Under the pieces are notes generated by a model. The model saw only the letters and a program-made list of their open reading frames with translations. It ran no database searches and was not told the origin of the DNA. Positions 2 through 7,717 of a DNA stretch of 49,176 bases are shown in pieces. How positions within the stretch are numbered: the first letter of the stretch is position 1; the number at the start of each line of letters is the position of its first letter. This stretch comes from Alphaproteobacteria bacterium. Lineage in GTDB: Bacteria; Pseudomonadota; Alphaproteobacteria; GCA-2731375. Both the position numbers and the translations under genes were made by a program. Location of the stretch: the NCBI GenBank assembly GCA_021776235.1, contig JAJFGG010000151.1:1-49176 (forward strand), written 5' to 3'.

Positions 2-598
2 GGTGTTCGTAATGGTGATGAACATATTATGGGCGAGCATCTGGAGGCGCTGGAAGCTGAACATGAAAACGTTCATGTGCGGGTTTGCTACAGCAATCCC
101 AAAGATGAAGAGGTGGAGGGCGAAGGTTTTCATCATAGCTGCCGAGTAGGCGTCGACCTGTTCAAGAAGGCTTTGCCGTCAAATAACTATGAATTCTACA
201 TCTGTGGCCCGCCTCCGATGATGGAATCGTTGACGTCGGACCTGCGCGATTGGGGTGTTCCGGATTCAGACGTTTATTTTGAGGCATTTGGTCCCGCCAG
301 CGTGAAGAAAACGGCGCCCGCGCCGGCGGCCGCTACGGCTACGGGCCAGGTTGTGACATTTGCACGCTCGAACAAGACGATAACCTGGGATGGCAGTCAT
401 GGCTCGATCCTCGAACTGGCGGAGGCCAATGGCGTCGAATTGGATTTCGGATGCCGGGCAGGTAGCTGCGGCACCTGTATCACCGCGGTGAAAACGGGAG
501 AGGTGAGCTATGTAGAGGAACCCGGCTCGTTACCAGAGTCCGGTTCATGTCTCGCATGCGTTTCAGTGCCCAAATCGGATCTGGCCCTGGATGCTTGA
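2..598 (+). CDS. NAD(P)H oxidoreductase, FNR-like with C-terminal 2Fe-2S domain (3' part)
   Basis: The reading frame is open at the left edge, so the N-terminus lies outside the window. What is visible is the end of a ferredoxin-reductase NAD-binding domain (YICGPPPMM, the usual CGPPPMM nucleotide-site motif), an Ala/Pro/Thr linker at about residues 100-115, and a plant-type [2Fe-2S] ferredoxin domain with Cys ligands in CRAGSCGTC and CLAC. This order (FAD, NAD, 2Fe-2S) is typical of class IB reductases such as the hybrid-cluster-protein reductase Hcr and oxygenase reductases. Such enzymes move electrons from NAD(P)H through flavin to an iron-sulfur cluster in the cytoplasm. It is followed by cytochrome genes on the same strand, so it may feed or drain that chain; this is inferred from position only. 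The natural partner could also lie upstream, out of view. Confidence 0.85.
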   Translation, partial: GVRNGDEHIMGEHLEALEAEHENVHVRVCYSNPKDEEVEGEGFHHSCRVGVDLFKKALPSNNYEFYICGPPPMMESLTSDLRDWGVPDSDVYFEAFGPASVKKTAPAPAAATATGQVVTFARSNKTITWDGSHGSILELAEANGVELDFGCRAGSCGTCITAVKTGEVSYVEEPGSLPESGSCLACVSVPKSDLALDA

Positions 599-608
599 CG
601 GTTTGCGG

Positions 609-635
609 CTGACAATTAATTAGACAGGGTACAAT
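609..635 (+). promoter_or_regulatory. weak promoter-like boxes before the cytochrome operon
   Basis: CTGACA (609-614) and TACAAT (630-635) resemble sigma-70 -35 and -10 boxes, but they are 15 bases apart, shorter than the usual 16-18. The position between the reductase stop and the tetrahaem cytochrome would suit an internal promoter. The call is tentative, since readthrough from the reductase gene would serve equally well. Confidence 0.2.
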
Positions 636-704
636 GGGACCGGCAACAATGAACCGGCGACGATTGAGAGGATGATAATCAAAATGCGGGGAATTCCTGT
701 GATC

Positions 705-1703
705 ATGAAAACACGCACATTTTTAATTGGGTTGGCTCTGTTGGGTGCATTGGTGTTGGGCCCAGGCATTGCTGAAGCGCAGGAACTGCATCTTGATCCA
801 GCCAAAGTGATGGGTCCCGATGCCTGTGGCGAATGTCACAAATCCTCCGTTGAATCGTGGAAAGGCAGTCATCATTTTTCGACCTTTAAAACCCTGCCGC
901 GTGAAAAGGAGGCGCGCGCCATTGCCGATAAAATGGGTTTGAAGCGCATCAAATCCGGCAGCGAGTGCCTGTCATGCCATTTCACCTCAGCCGACGTAAA
1001 TGGCAAGACCAAGCCTATTGCCGGCATAACCTGTGAATCCTGCCATGGCGCCGGCCGTGACTGGATCAAGGTCCATAGCGATTTTGGCGGCAAAGGCGTA
1101 AAGGCCGAGAACGAAACCGCGGCGCACAAGGTGGAACGTTACAAGAAGTCCGAAGCCGCCGGCATGATCCGGCCCGGAAGTCTTTATCAAGTGGCGAACA
1201 ATTGCTTTGGCTGCCATACGGTGCCAAACGAGAAACTGGTCAACGTTGGCGGCCATGCGGCCGGCAGTAAGATCGAGCTGGTTGCCTGGAGCCAGGGCGA
1301 AGTTCGCCATAATGTCTGGTACAGCAAGGATAATAATGTTTCGCCGATTGAACGTTTGCGCATGATTTATCTGGTGGGCCGGGCCCTTGACTTGGAATTC
1401 GCCCTGCGCGGCGTCGCCAAGGCCACCAAGAAGGCGGATTACGCGGTGAAAATGGCCAAGCGGGCAAAGAAGGCGCGCAAACGGATCAAGGCGATCGCCA
1501 AACTGGTCGATGCACCAGAATTGATGGCCATGTATTCAGCCGCCAAGTCGGCAAAACTGAAGTTGAACAATGAGGCCAAATTGACGGCCGCGGCGGACGA
1601 GGTGGCGCGCCACGCCCAGGCCTTGGCCAACAAGTATGACGGCAGCACATTTGGCGGCCTCGACAAGGTTCTGCCCAAAGCAAAAAAATACAAGGGAAAA
1701 TAG
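705..1703 (+). CDS. Periplasmic tetrahaem cytochrome c, c554 family
   Basis: The start at 705 gives a clean Sec signal peptide (MKTRTFLIGLALLGALV, cleavage near AEAQ). In-frame ATGs at 672 and 684 are possible, and GAGAGG at 666-671 would favour 684. The mature protein has four CXXCH haem motifs (CGECH at residue 41, then CLSCH, CESCH and CFGCH), plus extra His residues such as SHHF that could be distal ligands. Number and spacing resemble the cytochrome c554/c-prime family, whose founding member takes electrons from hydroxylamine oxidoreductase in nitrifiers; no such oxidoreductase is visible here. The C-terminal third is Lys/Ala-rich and helical with no haem site, a basic tail that could bind an acidic partner such as the Asp/Glu-rich linker of the decahaem protein downstream (inference). 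Likely role: periplasmic electron carrier. Confidence 0.85.
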   Translation: MKTRTFLIGLALLGALVLGPGIAEAQELHLDPAKVMGPDACGECHKSSVESWKGSHHFSTFKTLPREKEARAIADKMGLKRIKSGSECLSCHFTSADVNGKTKPIAGITCESCHGAGRDWIKVHSDFGGKGVKAENETAAHKVERYKKSEAAGMIRPGSLYQVANNCFGCHTVPNEKLVNVGGHAAGSKIELVAWSQGEVRHNVWYSKDNNVSPIERLRMIYLVGRALDLEFALRGVAKATKKADYAVKMAKRAKKARKRIKAIAKLVDAPELMAMYSAAKSAKLKLNNEAKLTAAADEVARHAQALANKYDGSTFGGLDKVLPKAKKYKGK

Positions 1704-1761
1704 GCAGCCGCCGGCCGTGCCGGGCTCAGGCTTGACGGAGACGCATTAATGGCAATCAGCC

Positions 1762-3546
1762 ATGGTTGAGGCGGTCACGATACAGCGGCCCCAACGTTGG
1801 GACACGCCGTTTTGCGAGGATATGGGCGCCGTCGATGTGGAGCGTATCCTTGCCTTGGACCCGTTCCGGGAGATGGATCGCGACCGCTTTCCCGACAGCA
1901 TGTCGCTGGCCGGCATCATCAGCAACGATATGCGTGTCGTCGATTGCCAGGATGGCGACATCGTTATGCGCGAAGGCGATTACGGCAATTCCGCCTTTTT
2001 GGTACTCAAGGGGCAGGTCCGGGTCATTTTGCAACCGGGGTTGCCGGAATCCGTACTTGGCCGGGCCCCAAGTCAAAAGAAGGGCCTGCTCCAGGCCCTG
2101 GCGCAGCTGTGGCGCAACCCTTCATTTCCAGAGGTGCGTGGCGCCTATTCTGCAGAAGCAAACGAAGCCATGTCCAGCCGGGCAGGGACAGATCAACAGG
2201 CCCGCGTCTTTCTTCAGGACGTGCCGGCGGTGCTTGACGAACACCAGACCGCTACGCTGACGTCGGGAGATATGTTCGGTGAAATTGCCGCCCTCGGGCG
2301 GACCCAGCGCACGGCCTCGGTGATTTCCGATGGACCTTCGGAACTGCTGGAAATTCGCTGGCAGGGTTTGCGCGATATCCGGCGCCGGGTCGATGATTTC
2401 CGCGAGCATGTGGACCGGCTGTACCGTGAACGCAGTTTAGCGTCCCATCTGCGGGCCACGCCGATGTTTCAGAACCTCGACGAGGCGGCGATTGCCCGAA
2501 TTGCGGATGAAACCCTTTTCGAGACCTATGGTGATTTCGACTGGCATACGCAATATCAGCGCGAACGGGGCGAAAGTTTCAACCTCCGCTTGGCGGGGGA
2601 ACCTGTTATCGTAGCCGAAGGCGACTATCCCGATGGTCTGTTATTGGTGCGGGCCGGATTTGCCCGGGTTAGCCAAAGCGTCAATAATGGCCACAGGACG
2701 ATCCGCTATATTGGACGCGGTGCCGTCTTTGGCATGGCGGAGATTGTCCATAACTGGTCAGATGGCGCCGTCAAAACAGGCCCTGGCGGCGGTGACGACA
2801 ATGCCCTGGGCGACGACCCGACAAAGACCTTGCAAGCCACTCTGCGCGCATTGGGTTATGTGGATATTCTGCGGGTTCCAACGGCGGTCATTGAGGAACT
2901 GGTCCTGCCCACCCTGTCTGGCGAGGCATTGGACCAATATGGTCAGCTGGACGAGCGTCAAGACAGCGCCGAGGCGGCCGGTGCCGATGAGACCGGGGCC
3001 AACCGGTTGATCGACCCAGGCATGCTGGAGTTTCTGGTCGAACATCGCTACATCAACGGAACGGCAACGATGTTGATGGACCTGGACCGTTGCGTGCGCT
3101 GCGATGATTGTGTGGTGGCCTGCGCCCGCGCCCATGACGGCAATCCCCGCTTCAACCGCCATGGACGGCGCCATGATCATTACATGGTGGCGAATGCCTG
3201 CATGCATTGTATGGATCCCGTCTGCATGATCGGTTGCCCAACCGGCGCCATTCACCGTTCGTCGGCGGGGGGCCAGGTCGTGATCAATGATACGACCTGT
3301 ATCGGCTGCGCCACTTGCGCCAACTCGTGCCCTTACGACAATATCCGGATGGTGGAAATACGCGACAATAGCGGCGCATTTATCCGCGACACCGTGACCA
3401 ACGCCCCAATCGTCAAGGCCTCTAAATGCGATCTATGCCTTGATCAGCCTGGGGGACCGGCCTGCCAGCGCGCCTGCCCGCATGACGCGTTGAAGCGGGT
3501 CGATATGCAGGATCTGGCCGATCTTGAGAAGTGGCTGAACCGGTGA
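1762..3546 (+). CDS. Two cyclic-nucleotide-binding-like domains fused to a four-cluster ferredoxin
   Basis: This 594-residue protein has an unusual layout. Residues about 35-205 and 225-345 each look like a CRP/cNMP-binding beta-roll (GDIVMREGDYGNSAFLVLKG and GDMFGEIAAL in the first; EGDYPDGLLLVRAG and GRGAVFGMAE in the second). The first carries an insertion of about 85 residues between its halves. The C-terminal 165 residues hold 16 cysteines in four groups (CVRCDDCVVAC, CMHCMDPVCMIGC, CIGCATCANSC, and CDLC with a later CQRAC), the pattern of four-[4Fe-4S] electron-transfer subunits such as NrfC and DmsB. No DNA-binding domain, signal peptide or membrane segment is seen, so a cytoplasmic iron-sulfur protein gated by a ligand is likely. 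The frame is closed upstream by a stop at 1747, so 1762 is the first usable ATG. The next gene overlaps its end, which implies co-translation. Confidence 0.85.
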   Translation: MVEAVTIQRPQRWDTPFCEDMGAVDVERILALDPFREMDRDRFPDSMSLAGIISNDMRVVDCQDGDIVMREGDYGNSAFLVLKGQVRVILQPGLPESVLGRAPSQKKGLLQALAQLWRNPSFPEVRGAYSAEANEAMSSRAGTDQQARVFLQDVPAVLDEHQTATLTSGDMFGEIAALGRTQRTASVISDGPSELLEIRWQGLRDIRRRVDDFREHVDRLYRERSLASHLRATPMFQNLDEAAIARIADETLFETYGDFDWHTQYQRERGESFNLRLAGEPVIVAEGDYPDGLLLVRAGFARVSQSVNNGHRTIRYIGRGAVFGMAEIVHNWSDGAVKTGPGGGDDNALGDDPTKTLQATLRALGYVDILRVPTAVIEELVLPTLSGEALDQYGQLDERQDSAEAAGADETGANRLIDPGMLEFLVEHRYINGTATMLMDLDRCVRCDDCVVACARAHDGNPRFNRHGRRHDHYMVANACMHCMDPVCMIGCPTGAIHRSSAGGQVVINDTTCIGCATCANSCPYDNIRMVEIRDNSGAFIRDTVTNAPIVKASKCDLCLDQPGGPACQRACPHDALKRVDMQDLADLEKWLNR

Positions 3547-4364
3547 TTACGTTCGCCAGACGCCGTTGGTTAAACGGTTTCATCACTCTGCTGGCAGGTG
3601 CCGGGTTACTGGCCTGGTATACCGCGTATGATGTTGCCCTGTACCAGCCGGCCTTTCTGACTGGCTGGTTGTTACTGGCGGTCATCCTGGTTTTGACCCT
3701 GTACAATGGCCGCAAGAAATTATCAATGGTGCCCGTTGGAACCGCGGCGGCCTGGCTGCAATGGCATATTTATTCGGGTTTCCTGGCGATCCTGATATTC
3801 GCGCTGCATATAGAGTGGAGCCTGCCGAACGGTGTTCTAGAGCGCCTATTGGCGTTGTTCTTTGTCGCCGTCGCGGGCAGTGGTCTGGTGGGAATTTATT
3901 TGTCCCGGCGCTATGCCCGCATGCTGACCCGGCGGACCGAAGAAGTCGTACTGGAAAGAATACCGCAATTCATTGCCGATCTGCGTACTCAGGCAGAAAC
4001 CCTGGTCCTTGAATCCGCCGTCGAGACCGGCTCATCGACGATCGCAGATTTTTACGGCAACCGGCTGGCCAATTATTTTGCCGCGCCCAGGAATCTGCGA
4101 TTACACTTGCAGGGCTCCCGCCGCGCCTCGTTCGCGCTGATGACCGATTTGAACATCATGACCCGCTACCTGAATGATCAGGAAATGGTCTATGCCGAGA
4201 AACTGCGGGCGTTGGTTGAACGCAAGGACCGGCTGGATTACGCCCACGCCTTGCAAACCACCCTAAAGGCGTGGCTGTTCGTTCATTTACCCGCCACATA
4301 TGGTCTGCTTTTGTTGGCCCTGCTGCATCTGATACTGGTCTATTCCTTTGGCGGCGCGGGCTGA
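3531..4364 (+). CDS. Membrane protein resembling a dihaem cytochrome b subunit
   Basis: A GTG start at 3531 overlaps the ferredoxin gene by 16 bases. Hydrophobic segments lie near residues 13-32, 41-58, 73-92, 104-124 and 250-272. Two helices each carry a pair of His residues separated by exactly 13 residues: one begins QWHIYSGFLAI and ends ALH, the other begins VHLPATYGLL and ends LLH. HX13H pairs in two helices are the bis-His haem ligation pattern of cytochrome b of bc1 complexes, so two membrane b haems are predicted. A soluble helical stretch of about 120 residues separates the helix groups. Placed between a ferredoxin and a periplasmic cytochrome, it is the natural membrane electron carrier of the cluster. 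I do not recognise a named family; haem binding is inferred from the motif. Confidence 0.7.
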   Translation: MAEPVITFARRRWLNGFITLLAGAGLLAWYTAYDVALYQPAFLTGWLLLAVILVLTLYNGRKKLSMVPVGTAAAWLQWHIYSGFLAILIFALHIEWSLPNGVLERLLALFFVAVAGSGLVGIYLSRRYARMLTRRTEEVVLERIPQFIADLRTQAETLVLESAVETGSSTIADFYGNRLANYFAAPRNLRLHLQGSRRASFALMTDLNIMTRYLNDQEMVYAEKLRALVERKDRLDYAHALQTTLKAWLFVHLPATYGLLLLALLHLILVYSFGGAG

Positions 4365-6664
4365 TGGCTGCGCCATTGCAATCGTTTGGCTATCGCGACA
4401 GCCCCTATATCCGGCCAGGGCAGAAATGGGTTTGCGGCCGCGCCGCCCAGGGATGCCCCTGTCAGATTGGCCCGGATAATAGTGGCCATTGCCGGGGTGG
4501 CTATGAATGCGAACCGGCGCAGGCTGGCGACCGGTGGAAATGTACACGCTCGCAATTCTCGGGTGGCCCCTGCGCGGATGGTCCCCTGGCGGATGGCACC
4601 TGTTGCCGGCAGATACCCCTATGCCGGCCGGTTCGCAGTTGGCGCGCCCGGCGCGGCGCCGTCATGCGGTGGGTGTTGGCGGTGGTGACCGGCCTGTTGA
4701 TCCTTGTCCTGGCCAGCGACTATCGTACGGCCTTTATCAGTCCGGGTGCGTTGTCGTTTCAGCACGCTGAACTGGCTGATTGTGGCGCCTGTCACGCGGT
4801 ATACCACCAGGGTGTCGGGGGTTGGTTGCGCGCGGCCTGGTCGGATGATACGGCCGTCGAGGATAGCAAACCCTGCATTACCTGCCACAAAATGGCCGAT
4901 CGCGGCCTGATGCCCCACAGCCTGCCGGCGGAATCTCTTCAGGCGTTGAGTGCGAACGTGGCGCCGGCAACCGGCACCGGACGTAGTGTTGGTGTGCAAC
5001 TTGCCAATTTGGCGTTTGGCCAGCCCGAAAATGCCGACCGCTCTGTACCCTGCATGACCTGTCACGGCGAACATCAGGGTGCGGCAGGTGAACTGACAAG
5101 CCTGTCTGACGATCGTTGCAATGCCTGCCATCAGGTGCAATTTCATAGCCTGGCCGCCGGCCACCCGGATTTCGCGCGCTATCCCTATCAGCGGCGGACG
5201 CATTTGCAGTTCGATCATACCAGTCACATCGACAAGCATTTCCGTGACGCCAAGATGGCGAAATCGGCGCCGGGTGAATGCCGCGACTGCCACAAGACCG
5301 ACAGCAATGACCGCCTGATGGAAGTGAAATCCTTCGAGGTGAGCTGTGGCGCCTGTCATGGCGAACAGGTGGCGGGTGCCGGGCGCGCAAGCGCCAAGGG
5401 CATGGCCATATTCGCCGTGCCGGGACTGGATGTGGCGGGGTTGCGCGACAAGGGCGTGGCCATTGGCGAATGGCCCGAATACGCCGATGGCGCGGTGCCG
5501 CCGGTGATGAATTTTTTGCTATCGGCGGACCCGGATTATCGTGCGGCAAGTGCTGTTTTCAACGGTATCGATGACCCAATGGATCTGACGGAAGCCAGCC
5601 TTGAACAGCTGGCGGCGGTGGAGGCTTTGGCCTGGGGCGTAAAATCCCTGTTTTTCGATATTCGAACCAAGGGCGTGGCGGCCCTGCATGCCCGCATGCA
5701 AAACATTCTGGGGCGCCCCTTGTCGGCGACGGAAAAAGCACCGCTGACAGCGCTGTTGCCCGTGGACAGCATCGCCGCGGCACAGCAGCAATGGTTCCCC
5801 GCGCTGGCATCCGAAATGTCCCGATGGCGGCGCGGAGACCAGGTGTTGATGCCGTCGGACGAAGCGCCGAAGGGCCCAGAGGAAAAAGCTAATGATGACG
5901 CGCCGGCGGAGCAGAAAGATGCGGACAGCGACGGCGAGATTGATACCGGCAAAGATGACGACGACGATGACGAGGAAATAGATACCGACGAAGAGGATGA
6001 CGAGGACGAAATTGCCACCGGTAAAGATAGCGATGACGACGACGAAAATTTGACGGACGGCAGGAAAAGTCCCGCGGCACCGGTCCTCGCCGTCGCCAGT
6101 GGTGAAGATTGGAATGCGTCCGGCGGCTGGTACCGTGACGAATTCGTCCTGCGCTATCGCCCCACCGGGCATGGCGATGAATTCGTTCGCGCCTGGTTGG
6201 ATTTGACCGGCCAGTCAGGTCTGCAGCAAAAGGCCAGCAGCCAGGTCTTTGAAGGCCTGATTGACAACAAAGCGCCGGGCTTGTGCGGCAAATGCCATTC
6301 CGTGGACAAGCAGGCGGATGGCGGCTTGATCGTCAATTGGCAGGCCTACCGGCCGGCGGCCGGTTTGAAGAAATCAGTACGCTTTTCCCATTCTGCCCAC
6401 TTCAGCCTGCTGAACGAGCGAGGCTGCCTGACGTGCCACGCCAGAGACGACAAGGCGGATTATGCCGGTGGGTTCAAGGACCGCGACCCCGCAACCTTCG
6501 CCGCGAACTTCAAGCCCCTGCCCAGAGCGGTTTGCGCCGAATGCCATACGGCCGCCAAGGCCGGGGACAACTGCCTGACCTGCCACAACTACCATCTTGG
6601 TGTTTTCCTGCCGGTAGAGGCGCACACCGGGGGCAATCTCATGGAAGTCTCAAATAAACGCTAG
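4364..6664 (+). CDS. Membrane-anchored decahaem cytochrome c with Cys-rich N-terminus and acidic linker
   Basis: The ATG at 4364 overlaps the previous stop (TGATG), so I use it rather than the longer frame from 4271. Residues 24-87 hold ten cysteines, followed by basic residues (RSWRARRG) and one membrane helix (about 101-118). The positive-inside rule puts the Cys-rich part in the cytoplasm and the rest in the periplasm. Ten CXXCH motifs follow: six between residues 140 and 332, then four between 641 and 741. Residues about 510-565 form a low-complexity Asp/Glu stretch between the two haem groups, possibly a flexible or Ca2+-binding linker. The protein probably passes electrons between the membrane b-type subunit and periplasmic acceptors. 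The Cys-rich domain could hold Fe-S or Zn, or be disulfide-bonded if topology is reversed. Its 3' end overlaps the convergent radical SAM gene by 15 bases. Confidence 0.85.
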   Translation: MAAPLQSFGYRDSPYIRPGQKWVCGRAAQGCPCQIGPDNSGHCRGGYECEPAQAGDRWKCTRSQFSGGPCADGPLADGTCCRQIPLCRPVRSWRARRGAVMRWVLAVVTGLLILVLASDYRTAFISPGALSFQHAELADCGACHAVYHQGVGGWLRAAWSDDTAVEDSKPCITCHKMADRGLMPHSLPAESLQALSANVAPATGTGRSVGVQLANLAFGQPENADRSVPCMTCHGEHQGAAGELTSLSDDRCNACHQVQFHSLAAGHPDFARYPYQRRTHLQFDHTSHIDKHFRDAKMAKSAPGECRDCHKTDSNDRLMEVKSFEVSCGACHGEQVAGAGRASAKGMAIFAVPGLDVAGLRDKGVAIGEWPEYADGAVPPVMNFLLSADPDYRAASAVFNGIDDPMDLTEASLEQLAAVEALAWGVKSLFFDIRTKGVAALHARMQNILGRPLSATEKAPLTALLPVDSIAAAQQQWFPALASEMSRWRRGDQVLMPSDEAPKGPEEKANDDAPAEQKDADSDGEIDTGKDDDDDDEEIDTDEEDDEDEIATGKDSDDDDENLTDGRKSPAAPVLAVASGEDWNASGGWYRDEFVLRYRPTGHGDEFVRAWLDLTGQSGLQQKASSQVFEGLIDNKAPGLCGKCHSVDKQADGGLIVNWQAYRPAAGLKKSVRFSHSAHFSLLNERGCLTCHARDDKADYAGGFKDRDPATFAANFKPLPRAVCAECHTAAKAGDNCLTCHNYHLGVFLPVEAHTGGNLMEVSNKR

Positions 6665-7717
6665 GTGATCCGGTGCCAGGGAAAGGTAGTCGCTCAACAG
6701 GCGGTTCTTGGCGTCGGCGACGCAATGATGCTGGCAGCTTTTGGCCGGATTGATGGCCGCAAGCTGGCGTCGGTTATCTAACGAGTACCAGAAATCCCGA
6801 AAACTCTGACCGGAGATGTCGCCCAGAGTACCGCTTTCCGTATAGGCCTTGTCCTGACAGCTATAGACCTTGCAGTCGGCGCCGATCACGGTCAACATTT
6901 CCGCGAATATGCAGCGGTCATAGGGCTTTGAAAAATCTATCTCCATGCTGTGATAGTGATCCACCACCTGGAATTTTTCGTCATTCAGGGAACTGGCTTC
7001 GCTGATTTGTGCCCGCACCACGGCCTTGAAAGCGTCGTGATAGCGATTATTCTCCGCCCCGCTGTTGGCGATGATACAGGGGGAAATTTTAGCATGGGAT
7101 ACCCCTGCATCCTTCAGACGCCGGCACAGTGTAACAATATGCGGGGCGTTGCGCTTATCAACGATGATGGAGGCACCCAGCACGCATTCCGATCCGCGGG
7201 CGGCAAAGGCGGTCAAATTCGCCATGACCTCCTCAAAGGCTGTTTCCGGCACGCTACGGTATTCGCCATAGGAAGGGCCGTCCCAACCGTCGATAGAAAC
7301 CCGCAGCCAGGTGCCGTGGGCTGCAAGGGCATCGGCAACCTTGCCCTTCAGGCGTGAGCCGTTGCTCAGTGAGGCGATTTTTATGCCGCCCTCGGCCAGG
7401 CGGTTTACGGTTTCGGCGAAATAGGGATAGAGCAACGGTTCGCCACCGCCCGAGAAGGTCACCGCCTGTACACCCATGGCCAGCAAATCATCAACGATTT
7501 CGGCCATTTTCTCTTTTGGTATTCGGTCCCGCTCCACCATGTCTTCGCCCAGGGAGACATCATCGGTGCGATAGGCGCAGAAATAGCAACTGTGATTGCA
7601 GATGTTGGTCGGTTTTATGCGCACATGCACCGGCGCGGCCAACTCGCCGGCCTGCATGGCGTCGAGACGGTCGTGAAAGTGCATGGCCTTCAAGGACGAA
7701 TAAATGGCGTTTTGCAT
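6650..7717 (-). CDS. Radical SAM protein with SPASM-like C-terminus
   Basis: The N-terminal CNHSCYFC is the CX3CX2C site for the SAM-binding [4Fe-4S] cluster. It is followed by the GGGEP motif (TFSGGGEPL), typical of the SAM methionine pocket. The C-terminal part has further Cys residues (CIFAE, CKVYSCQD, CQHHC) in a SPASM-type arrangement for auxiliary clusters. Relatives act as peptide-modifying enzymes, sulfatase maturases or small-molecule enzymes. The C-terminal Cys pattern is not diagnostic and no precursor peptide is seen nearby. An anaerobic sulfatase maturase is conceivable because two sulfatases lie 6-13 kb away, but those carry Cys-type motifs that can also be matured aerobically. 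The gene runs tail-to-tail against the decahaem gene and stands alone on this strand. No strong ribosome site precedes the ATG. Confidence 0.75.
   Translation of the reverse strand: MQNAIYSSLKAMHFHDRLDAMQAGELAAPVHVRIKPTNICNHSCYFCAYRTDDVSLGEDMVERDRIPKEKMAEIVDDLLAMGVQAVTFSGGGEPLLYPYFAETVNRLAEGGIKIASLSNGSRLKGKVADALAAHGTWLRVSIDGWDGPSYGEYRSVPETAFEEVMANLTAFAARGSECVLGASIIVDKRNAPHIVTLCRRLKDAGVSHAKISPCIIANSGAENNRYHDAFKAVVRAQISEASSLNDEKFQVVDHYHSMEIDFSKPYDRCIFAEMLTVIGADCKVYSCQDKAYTESGTLGDISGQSFRDFWYSLDNRRQLAAINPAKSCQHHCVADAKNRLLSDYLSLAPDHLAFI

Follow-up and report, generated by a model that had tools for sequence, protein, structure and literature searches.

An alphaproteobacterial PCC4 Subgroup II gene set as the candidate inner half of a trans-envelope electron conduit with an NAD(P)H link and a putative cyclic-nucleotide switch

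The window analysed here, a stretch of 49,176 nucleotides that forms the complete contig JAJFGG010000151.1 (G000:C59) of an alphaproteobacterial assembly of 6.36 Mb (GCA_021776235.1), opens with five redox genes, all on the plus strand. They encode a reductase (RED), a tetrahaem cytochrome (TETRA), an iron-sulphur protein with cyclic-nucleotide-binding domains (CNBFD), a membrane protein (MEMB) and a decahaem cytochrome (DECA). By gene content and motifs, rather than by sequence comparison with the published genes, the module matches PCC4 Subgroup II as a new member. PCC4 is a putative porin-cytochrome cluster predicted in 2017 by He et al. (PMC5566968). It represents a predicted and widespread electron route across the envelope, whose carriers include planctomycetes and members of several further phyla as well as alpha- and gammaproteobacteria. 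We favour, with moderate confidence, the reading that the window genes make up half of a PCC4-type conduit, namely its part in the inner membrane and the periplasm, and that this conduit crosses the whole envelope, is linked to NAD(P)H and is controlled by a cyclic nucleotide. Likely additions to the PCC4 prediction are the NAD(P)H link, the cyclic-nucleotide switch, an inner and an outer module whose genes need not be linked, and an Occ/OprD-like porin that differs from that of MtrAB; with them, a parts list becomes a testable scheme.

Assignment to PCC4 Subgroup II

As described by He et al., PCC4 combines a porin with three cytochromes of the periplasm, which have 4, 5 and 10 haem sites, and with an inner-membrane protein of five helices, the third and fifth of which carry WX3HX13H and the fourth SGXXG (PMC5566968). 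In Subgroup II, which occurs in Alpha- and Gammaproteobacteria and Planctomycetes, a pfam13247 iron-sulphur gene stands directly upstream of the membrane-protein gene, and the tetrahaem gene is preceded by a redox gene (PMC5566968). A sequence-only reading of the window had proposed a five-gene redox set with three overlapping genes, and the reading frames, Pfam domains, MEMB histidines and haem sites all confirmed it; the overlaps amount to 16 nucleotides between CNBFD and MEMB and 1 nucleotide between MEMB and DECA (TGATG). TETRA and DECA hold 4 and 10 CXXCH sites, and a pentahaem gene is present on another contig of the same genome (G000:C159), as is a porin gene. MEMB has five helices, SGXXG and two WX3HX13H motifs, equal to those of the PCC3/PCC4 inner-membrane protein (PMC5566968). 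CNBFD, with its pfam13247 match, lies directly upstream of MEMB, and RED lies before TETRA.

Unlike in PCC4 as described, the porin and pentahaem genes of the source genome do not share a cluster with the window genes. Because all gene-content features are present and only linkage is missing, the module is regarded as a PCC4 member with an unlinked outer half. A wholly new complex was rejected, since the gene content is that of PCC4 (PMC5566968). Hence the earlier statement that no characterised complex with this set was known held in that none was found, but the set itself was already known as the predicted PCC4 Subgroup II (PMC5566968). None of the terms 'cyclic', 'cAMP' and 'ferredoxin' turned up in the main text of He et al. 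(PMC5566968). A metagenome paper of 2026 mentions PCC4-like clusters and records that genes for ferredoxin-NADP reductase lie close to some decahaem/porin clusters (PMC13264449).

Linkage, co-occurrence and distribution

A scan of named genomes for CNBFD yielded 80 loci, and linkage was evaluated in those 37 named loci that had 7.5 kb or more to either side. CNBFD, MEMB and DECA were adjacent and in the same order in 37/37 of these complete loci, RED and TETRA were each present in 32, and the pentahaem and porin genes each occurred in the same locus in 20, while about ten different gene orders were counted. Linkage that survives such repeated rearrangement is good evidence that the genes function jointly. 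The expectation that these genes belong together, which was to be checked by seeking the same gene order in other genomes, was therefore borne out.

Co-occurrence was assessed in 289 alphaproteobacterial genomes, 20 of them CNBFD-positive. The pentahaem gene was found in 18 of the 20 vs 7 of the 269 others (Fisher p 5e-21, an optimistic value because the sampled genomes are related, so that such p-values overstate a pattern that is still strong). For the porin gene the counts were 19/20 and 8/269, and all 25 genomes with a pentahaem gene also had the porin. Some genomes that lack CNBFD carry the porin/pentahaem pair with only a tetrahaem-like gene, or with a variant inner module.

In a tree of 73 CNBFD proteins, 34 came from Pseudomonadota and 25 from Planctomycetota, with a few from Nitrospinota, Nitrospirota, Omnitrophota, Acidobacteriota, Verrucomicrobiota and Lentisphaerota; these phylum labels follow the titles of the records, which are mostly metagenome-assembled genomes, at least one of them apparently misbinned (L063). 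Hwanghaeella grinnelliae, Adhaeretor mobilis and Marinobacter sp. CHS3-4 are among the cultured carriers. The CNBFD of L063, from a 'Kiritimatiellae' bin, is practically identical to that of L066, from a gammaproteobacterial bin, and one of the two contigs is probably misbinned.

The pentahaem cytochrome and the porin

Clustering of the neighbouring genes in relatives revealed two further conserved families, namely a pentahaem cytochrome of about 660 amino acids and a protein of about 495 amino acids with no Pfam match. The model of the latter, built for a relative's homologue, is a beta-barrel of about 18 strands (predicted local distance difference test, pLDDT, 78). In structural comparison it came closest to Occ/OprD porins (OccK7, Z 27.9, root-mean-square deviation 3.0 over 326 residues) and AlgE. 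The source genome has one gene of each family, side by side on G000:C159 among unrelated neighbours. The pair of the source genome is 71-73% identical to that of L028, from another family, vs 61% and 49% to that of L024 from its own genus, and lateral transfer or replacement is a possible explanation of these values.

The terminal electron acceptor or donor had been suspected upstream of the window. Instead, the conserved pentahaem and barrel genes sit on the separate contig. In close relatives, RED is preceded either by genes for an Ldh_2 dehydrogenase and CobS or, beyond Ldh_2 and on the opposite strand, by the porin/pentahaem pair, so a dedicated terminal enzyme at that place is not indicated. 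Of the path first proposed, from the NAD(P)H pool to periplasmic acceptors, the NAD(P)H end is upheld by RED and by a reductase fusion (see below), but the periplasmic end is not: as the conserved pentahaem cytochrome and outer-membrane barrel belong to the set, the path probably continues beyond the periplasm.

The set resembles MtrAB, MtoAB and PioAB in that multihaem cytochromes are combined with an outer-membrane barrel. However, the cytochrome partnered with the porin has 5 CXXCH sites and a large C-terminal region and is not an MtrA-type decahaem protein, and the barrel as modelled, with its strand number, is Occ/OprD-like. A porin of this kind argues against a simple copy of MtrAB. The pentahaem profile matched cytochrome c552 of Thermochromatium tepidum (PDB 5ze8, E 2.6e-17), with weak matches to MccSep, a multihaem selenoprotein cytochrome, and to MccA. 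The likeness to c552 covers the haem region and part of the following domain, whereas the protein described here is longer and is always accompanied by the barrel gene in the genomes tested.

The NAD(P)H end

RED is truncated at its 5' side because the window is the entire contig and starts inside the gene. The contig start removes about 225 residues of the protein, and the missing N-terminal part was not found elsewhere in the assembly, where the best other match was 38%. The remaining part matches NAD_binding_1 (5.6e-9) and Fer2 (1.5e-11) in Pfam and carries the conserved motifs RCYS, GGG.G.TP, CGPP and GCRAG.CGTC...C; the full-length relative in L044 has 424 amino acids with FAD_binding_6, NAD_binding_1 and Fer2.

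A sister form of the module was found in three other alphaproteobacterial genomes (L175, L181 and L182), in which a pyridine-nucleotide reductase (Pyr_redox) is fused to the cyclic-nucleotide-binding/4Fe-4S protein. This fusion argues that the reductase and the iron-sulphur protein act in consecutive steps. MEMB-like and decahaem genes adjoin the fusion gene in L175 and L182; for L181 the MEMB-like match came from the genome search, and a DECA-like gene stands beside the fusion in only the two former loci. A 919-aa protein in L174, tried as a further cyclic-nucleotide/iron-sulphur protein, was rejected and is a molybdopterin oxidoreductase.

In Hwanghaeella, RED bears an N-terminal FHA domain, a phosphothreonine reader (L054:7861-9900), and in sister DECA proteins an FHA-like domain replaces the cysteine repeats described below (L175:12476-14191, L182:7307-9028). 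As read from the sequences, regulatory domains are thus exchanged among the module proteins.

Predicted inner-membrane crossing and cytochromes

CNBFD matches cNMP_binding (1.9e-23) and several Fer4 models, among them PF13247 (7.7e-10), and no membrane helix was predicted in it. Its 16 cluster cysteines, the number required for four [4Fe-4S] clusters, are invariant in 73/73 orthologues.

MEMB gave no match in Pfam or NCBIfam. It carries W75-X3-H79-X13-H93, the SGXXG motif as SGLVG, and W248-X3-H252-X13-H266, and H79, H93, H252, H266 and G118 are invariant in 50 orthologues; MEMB is accordingly predicted to hold two b haems. The predicted structure is a confident helical model (pLDDT 92). Foldseek returned no significant match for this model, and searching PDB sequences with the profiles of MEMB and the porin produced no useful match. 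In structural alignment, the model matched CybB, STEAP1, b561 and SpNOX, among other helical bundles, with Z 8.7-10.3 overall and 8.7-9.9 for STEAP1 and SpNOX, a range that is common for helical bundles. Like ferric reductase/NADPH oxidase (FRD) and b561, the system would combine HX13H pairs for two b haems with a feed from an FAD/NAD(P)H reductase. Unlike in those systems, MEMB gave no match to FRD in Pfam, the reductase forms a protein of its own, and the four-cluster iron-sulphur protein is probably interposed.

TETRA matches Cytochrome_C554 (4.3e-16) and has a signal-like helix, with CXXCH at residues 52, 99, 121 and 178. DECA, whose most likely start is the ATG at 4364 overlapping the MEMB stop and not that at 4271, contains 10 CXXCH, c7-type haem domains and a membrane helix at residues 99-117. 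Ahead of this helix lies a cysteine-rich region absent from the sequence-only reading, mostly made of two four-cysteine repeats of the type C-x8-C-x2-GP-x4-G-x-C-x5-C-x-P, which no Pfam model recognised. The eight repeat cysteines are 74-97% conserved in 38 orthologues, and by pattern two repeats are present in 59/88 DECA proteins, some loci being counted twice. These repeats may bind a metal or an iron-sulphur cluster on the cytoplasmic side. The central part of DECA also holds a strongly acidic linker rich in Asp and Glu (window positions 5876-6070), and the pentahaem protein has a similar acidic stretch after its signal peptide.

The cyclic-nucleotide pocket

The phosphate-binding cassette of the first cyclic-nucleotide domain of CNBFD reads FGEIAALGRTQR. 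Its Glu is conserved in 73/73 orthologues and the phosphate-binding Arg in 64/73. Meanwhile, in eight planctomycete loci a class III cyclase-domain protein is encoded directly beside RED, divergently on the opposite strand. The intact cassette and the neighbouring cyclase make a ligand gate on CNBFD plausible, as the sequence-only reading had raised as a possibility. More tentatively, it is proposed that the conduit is gated directly at the protein level, with the sensor sitting on the iron-sulphur protein of the wire itself and cyclic AMP or cyclic GMP (cAMP or cGMP) deciding whether NAD(P)H electrons leave. If true, such a gate would be a direct second-messenger control of an electron wire, relevant to metal cycling and to electroactive bacteria.

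Proposed electron path and alternatives

In the favoured scheme, NAD(P)H would reduce the FAD of RED, and electrons would move on to its 2Fe-2S cluster and then to the four [4Fe-4S] clusters of CNBFD. They would cross the inner membrane via the two predicted b haems of MEMB and then pass over the ten haems of DECA to TETRA and finally to the pentahaem cytochrome, working with the outer-membrane barrel. At the CNBFD step, the cyclic-nucleotide domains would switch the transfer on or off. The scheme thus ends at NAD(P)H on the cytoplasmic side, whereas the model of the PCC4 paper ends at quinones. We favour the outward direction on two grounds: an NAD(P)H reductase stands at the cytoplasmic end, and RuBisCO was neither found in the source genome nor enriched among carriers.

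Several points weigh against the scheme. He et al. modelled electrons as passing from an outside donor to quinones (PMC5566968), and no biochemical or laboratory characterisation of PCC4 was found in the literature. Some planctomycetes keep only CNBFD, MEMB and DECA with no reductase or porin nearby, and in them the trio may therefore do something else. A barrel of about 18 strands in the model makes it doubtful that a cytochrome is threaded through as in MtrAB. As for the switch, the pocket Arg is absent in one gamma-/alphaproteobacterial subclade, so gating may not be universal.

The members of this subclade (L093, L098, L101, L105, L107 and L111) have the cassette FGESAVLGR.. without the phosphate-binding Arg, and the loss goes together with that of part of the DECA cysteine-rich region. 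Another ligand or a lost gating are possible for these proteins.

The alternative that survives best, though we consider it unlikely, is that the conduit runs inward. A donor outside the cell, for instance Fe(II) or Mn(II), would feed the porin/pentahaem pair, TETRA and DECA, and electrons would reach MEMB and the quinone pool, while RED would reduce NAD(P)+ in an energy-driven step. Except for the RED step, He et al. proposed the same route, which agrees with the finding of PCC4 in iron-oxidiser genomes and in Fe/Mn habitats (PMC5566968). MEMB could also be a quinone-reactive cytochrome b. However, RuBisCO was not detected in the source genome (other carbon-fixation routes and the iron oxidase Cyc2 were not searched), and within the alphaproteobacterial sample it was not enriched in module carriers (3/20 vs 22/269, p 0.40). 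Autotrophic Fe(II) oxidation, as probed via RuBisCO, showed no association with the module. An NAD(P)H reductase at the cytoplasmic end, moreover, fits poorly with a donor of high potential, Fe(II) for example.

Still less probable is the view that no extracellular transfer takes place. The pentahaem protein would then act as an enzyme on a soluble substrate, in the periplasm or at the surface, with the barrel as its substrate channel and the window genes as its supply of NAD(P)H electrons. The profile match to T. tepidum c552, and weakly to MccSep and MccA, fits such an enzyme, and the barrel resembles the substrate-specific Occ/OprD channels, not a wide sheath. Yet the pentahaem protein fits a relay equally well, and relays of ten and four haems appear elaborate for feeding one periplasmic enzyme.

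Finally, a transmembrane device like an NAD(P)H oxidase or ferric reductase, serving periplasmic redox balance or metal reduction, tuned by a cyclic nucleotide and only loosely associated with the outer-membrane pair, is highly improbable: it can draw on the HX13H pairs of ferric reductase/NOX, already pointed out for the PCC4 membrane protein (PMC5566968), on the MEMB model alignments and on the planctomycetes with only the trio nearby, but those alignments stay within the range that helical bundles commonly give, and the porin/pentahaem pair co-occurs strongly with the module in genomes.

Coordinates and neighbouring genes

Table 1. Positions of the module genes and their features in the window, and of the outer-half genes elsewhere in the source genome.
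Feature	Position	Strand	Description
RED	2..598	+	C-terminal part of FAD/NAD(P)H reductase with plant-type 2Fe-2S domain
TETRA	672..1703	+	exported tetrahaem cytochrome, c554 type
CNBFD	1762..3546	+	cytoplasmic; cyclic-nucleotide-binding domains, then C-terminal region for four [4Fe-4S]
CNBFD phosphate-binding cassette	2275..2310	+	FGEIAALGRTQR, first cyclic-nucleotide domain, Glu174 and Arg183
CNBFD cluster cysteines	3091..3477	+	16 cysteines, residues 444-572
MEMB	3531..4364	+	five-helix membrane protein, predicted two b haems
DECA	4364..6664	+	decahaem cytochrome, single N-terminal helix anchor, acidic Asp/Glu-rich linker
DECA cysteine repeat	4427..4630	+	duplicated 4-Cys repeat before membrane helix, presumably cytoplasmic
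Porin homologue of source genome	G000:C159:59253-60632
Pentahaem/porin pair of source genome	L126:7043-10639 (G000:C159)

Apparent open reading frames of cluster c17, which lie inside CNBFD on the opposite strand, were dismissed as frame artefacts. DECA is met tail to tail by a radical SAM/SPASM gene (6650-7717) that overlaps it by 15 bases and whose position beside DECA is kept in close relatives (cluster c13). The top NCBIfam match of its product, far under the cut-off, is a tungsten-cofactor oxidoreductase maturase.

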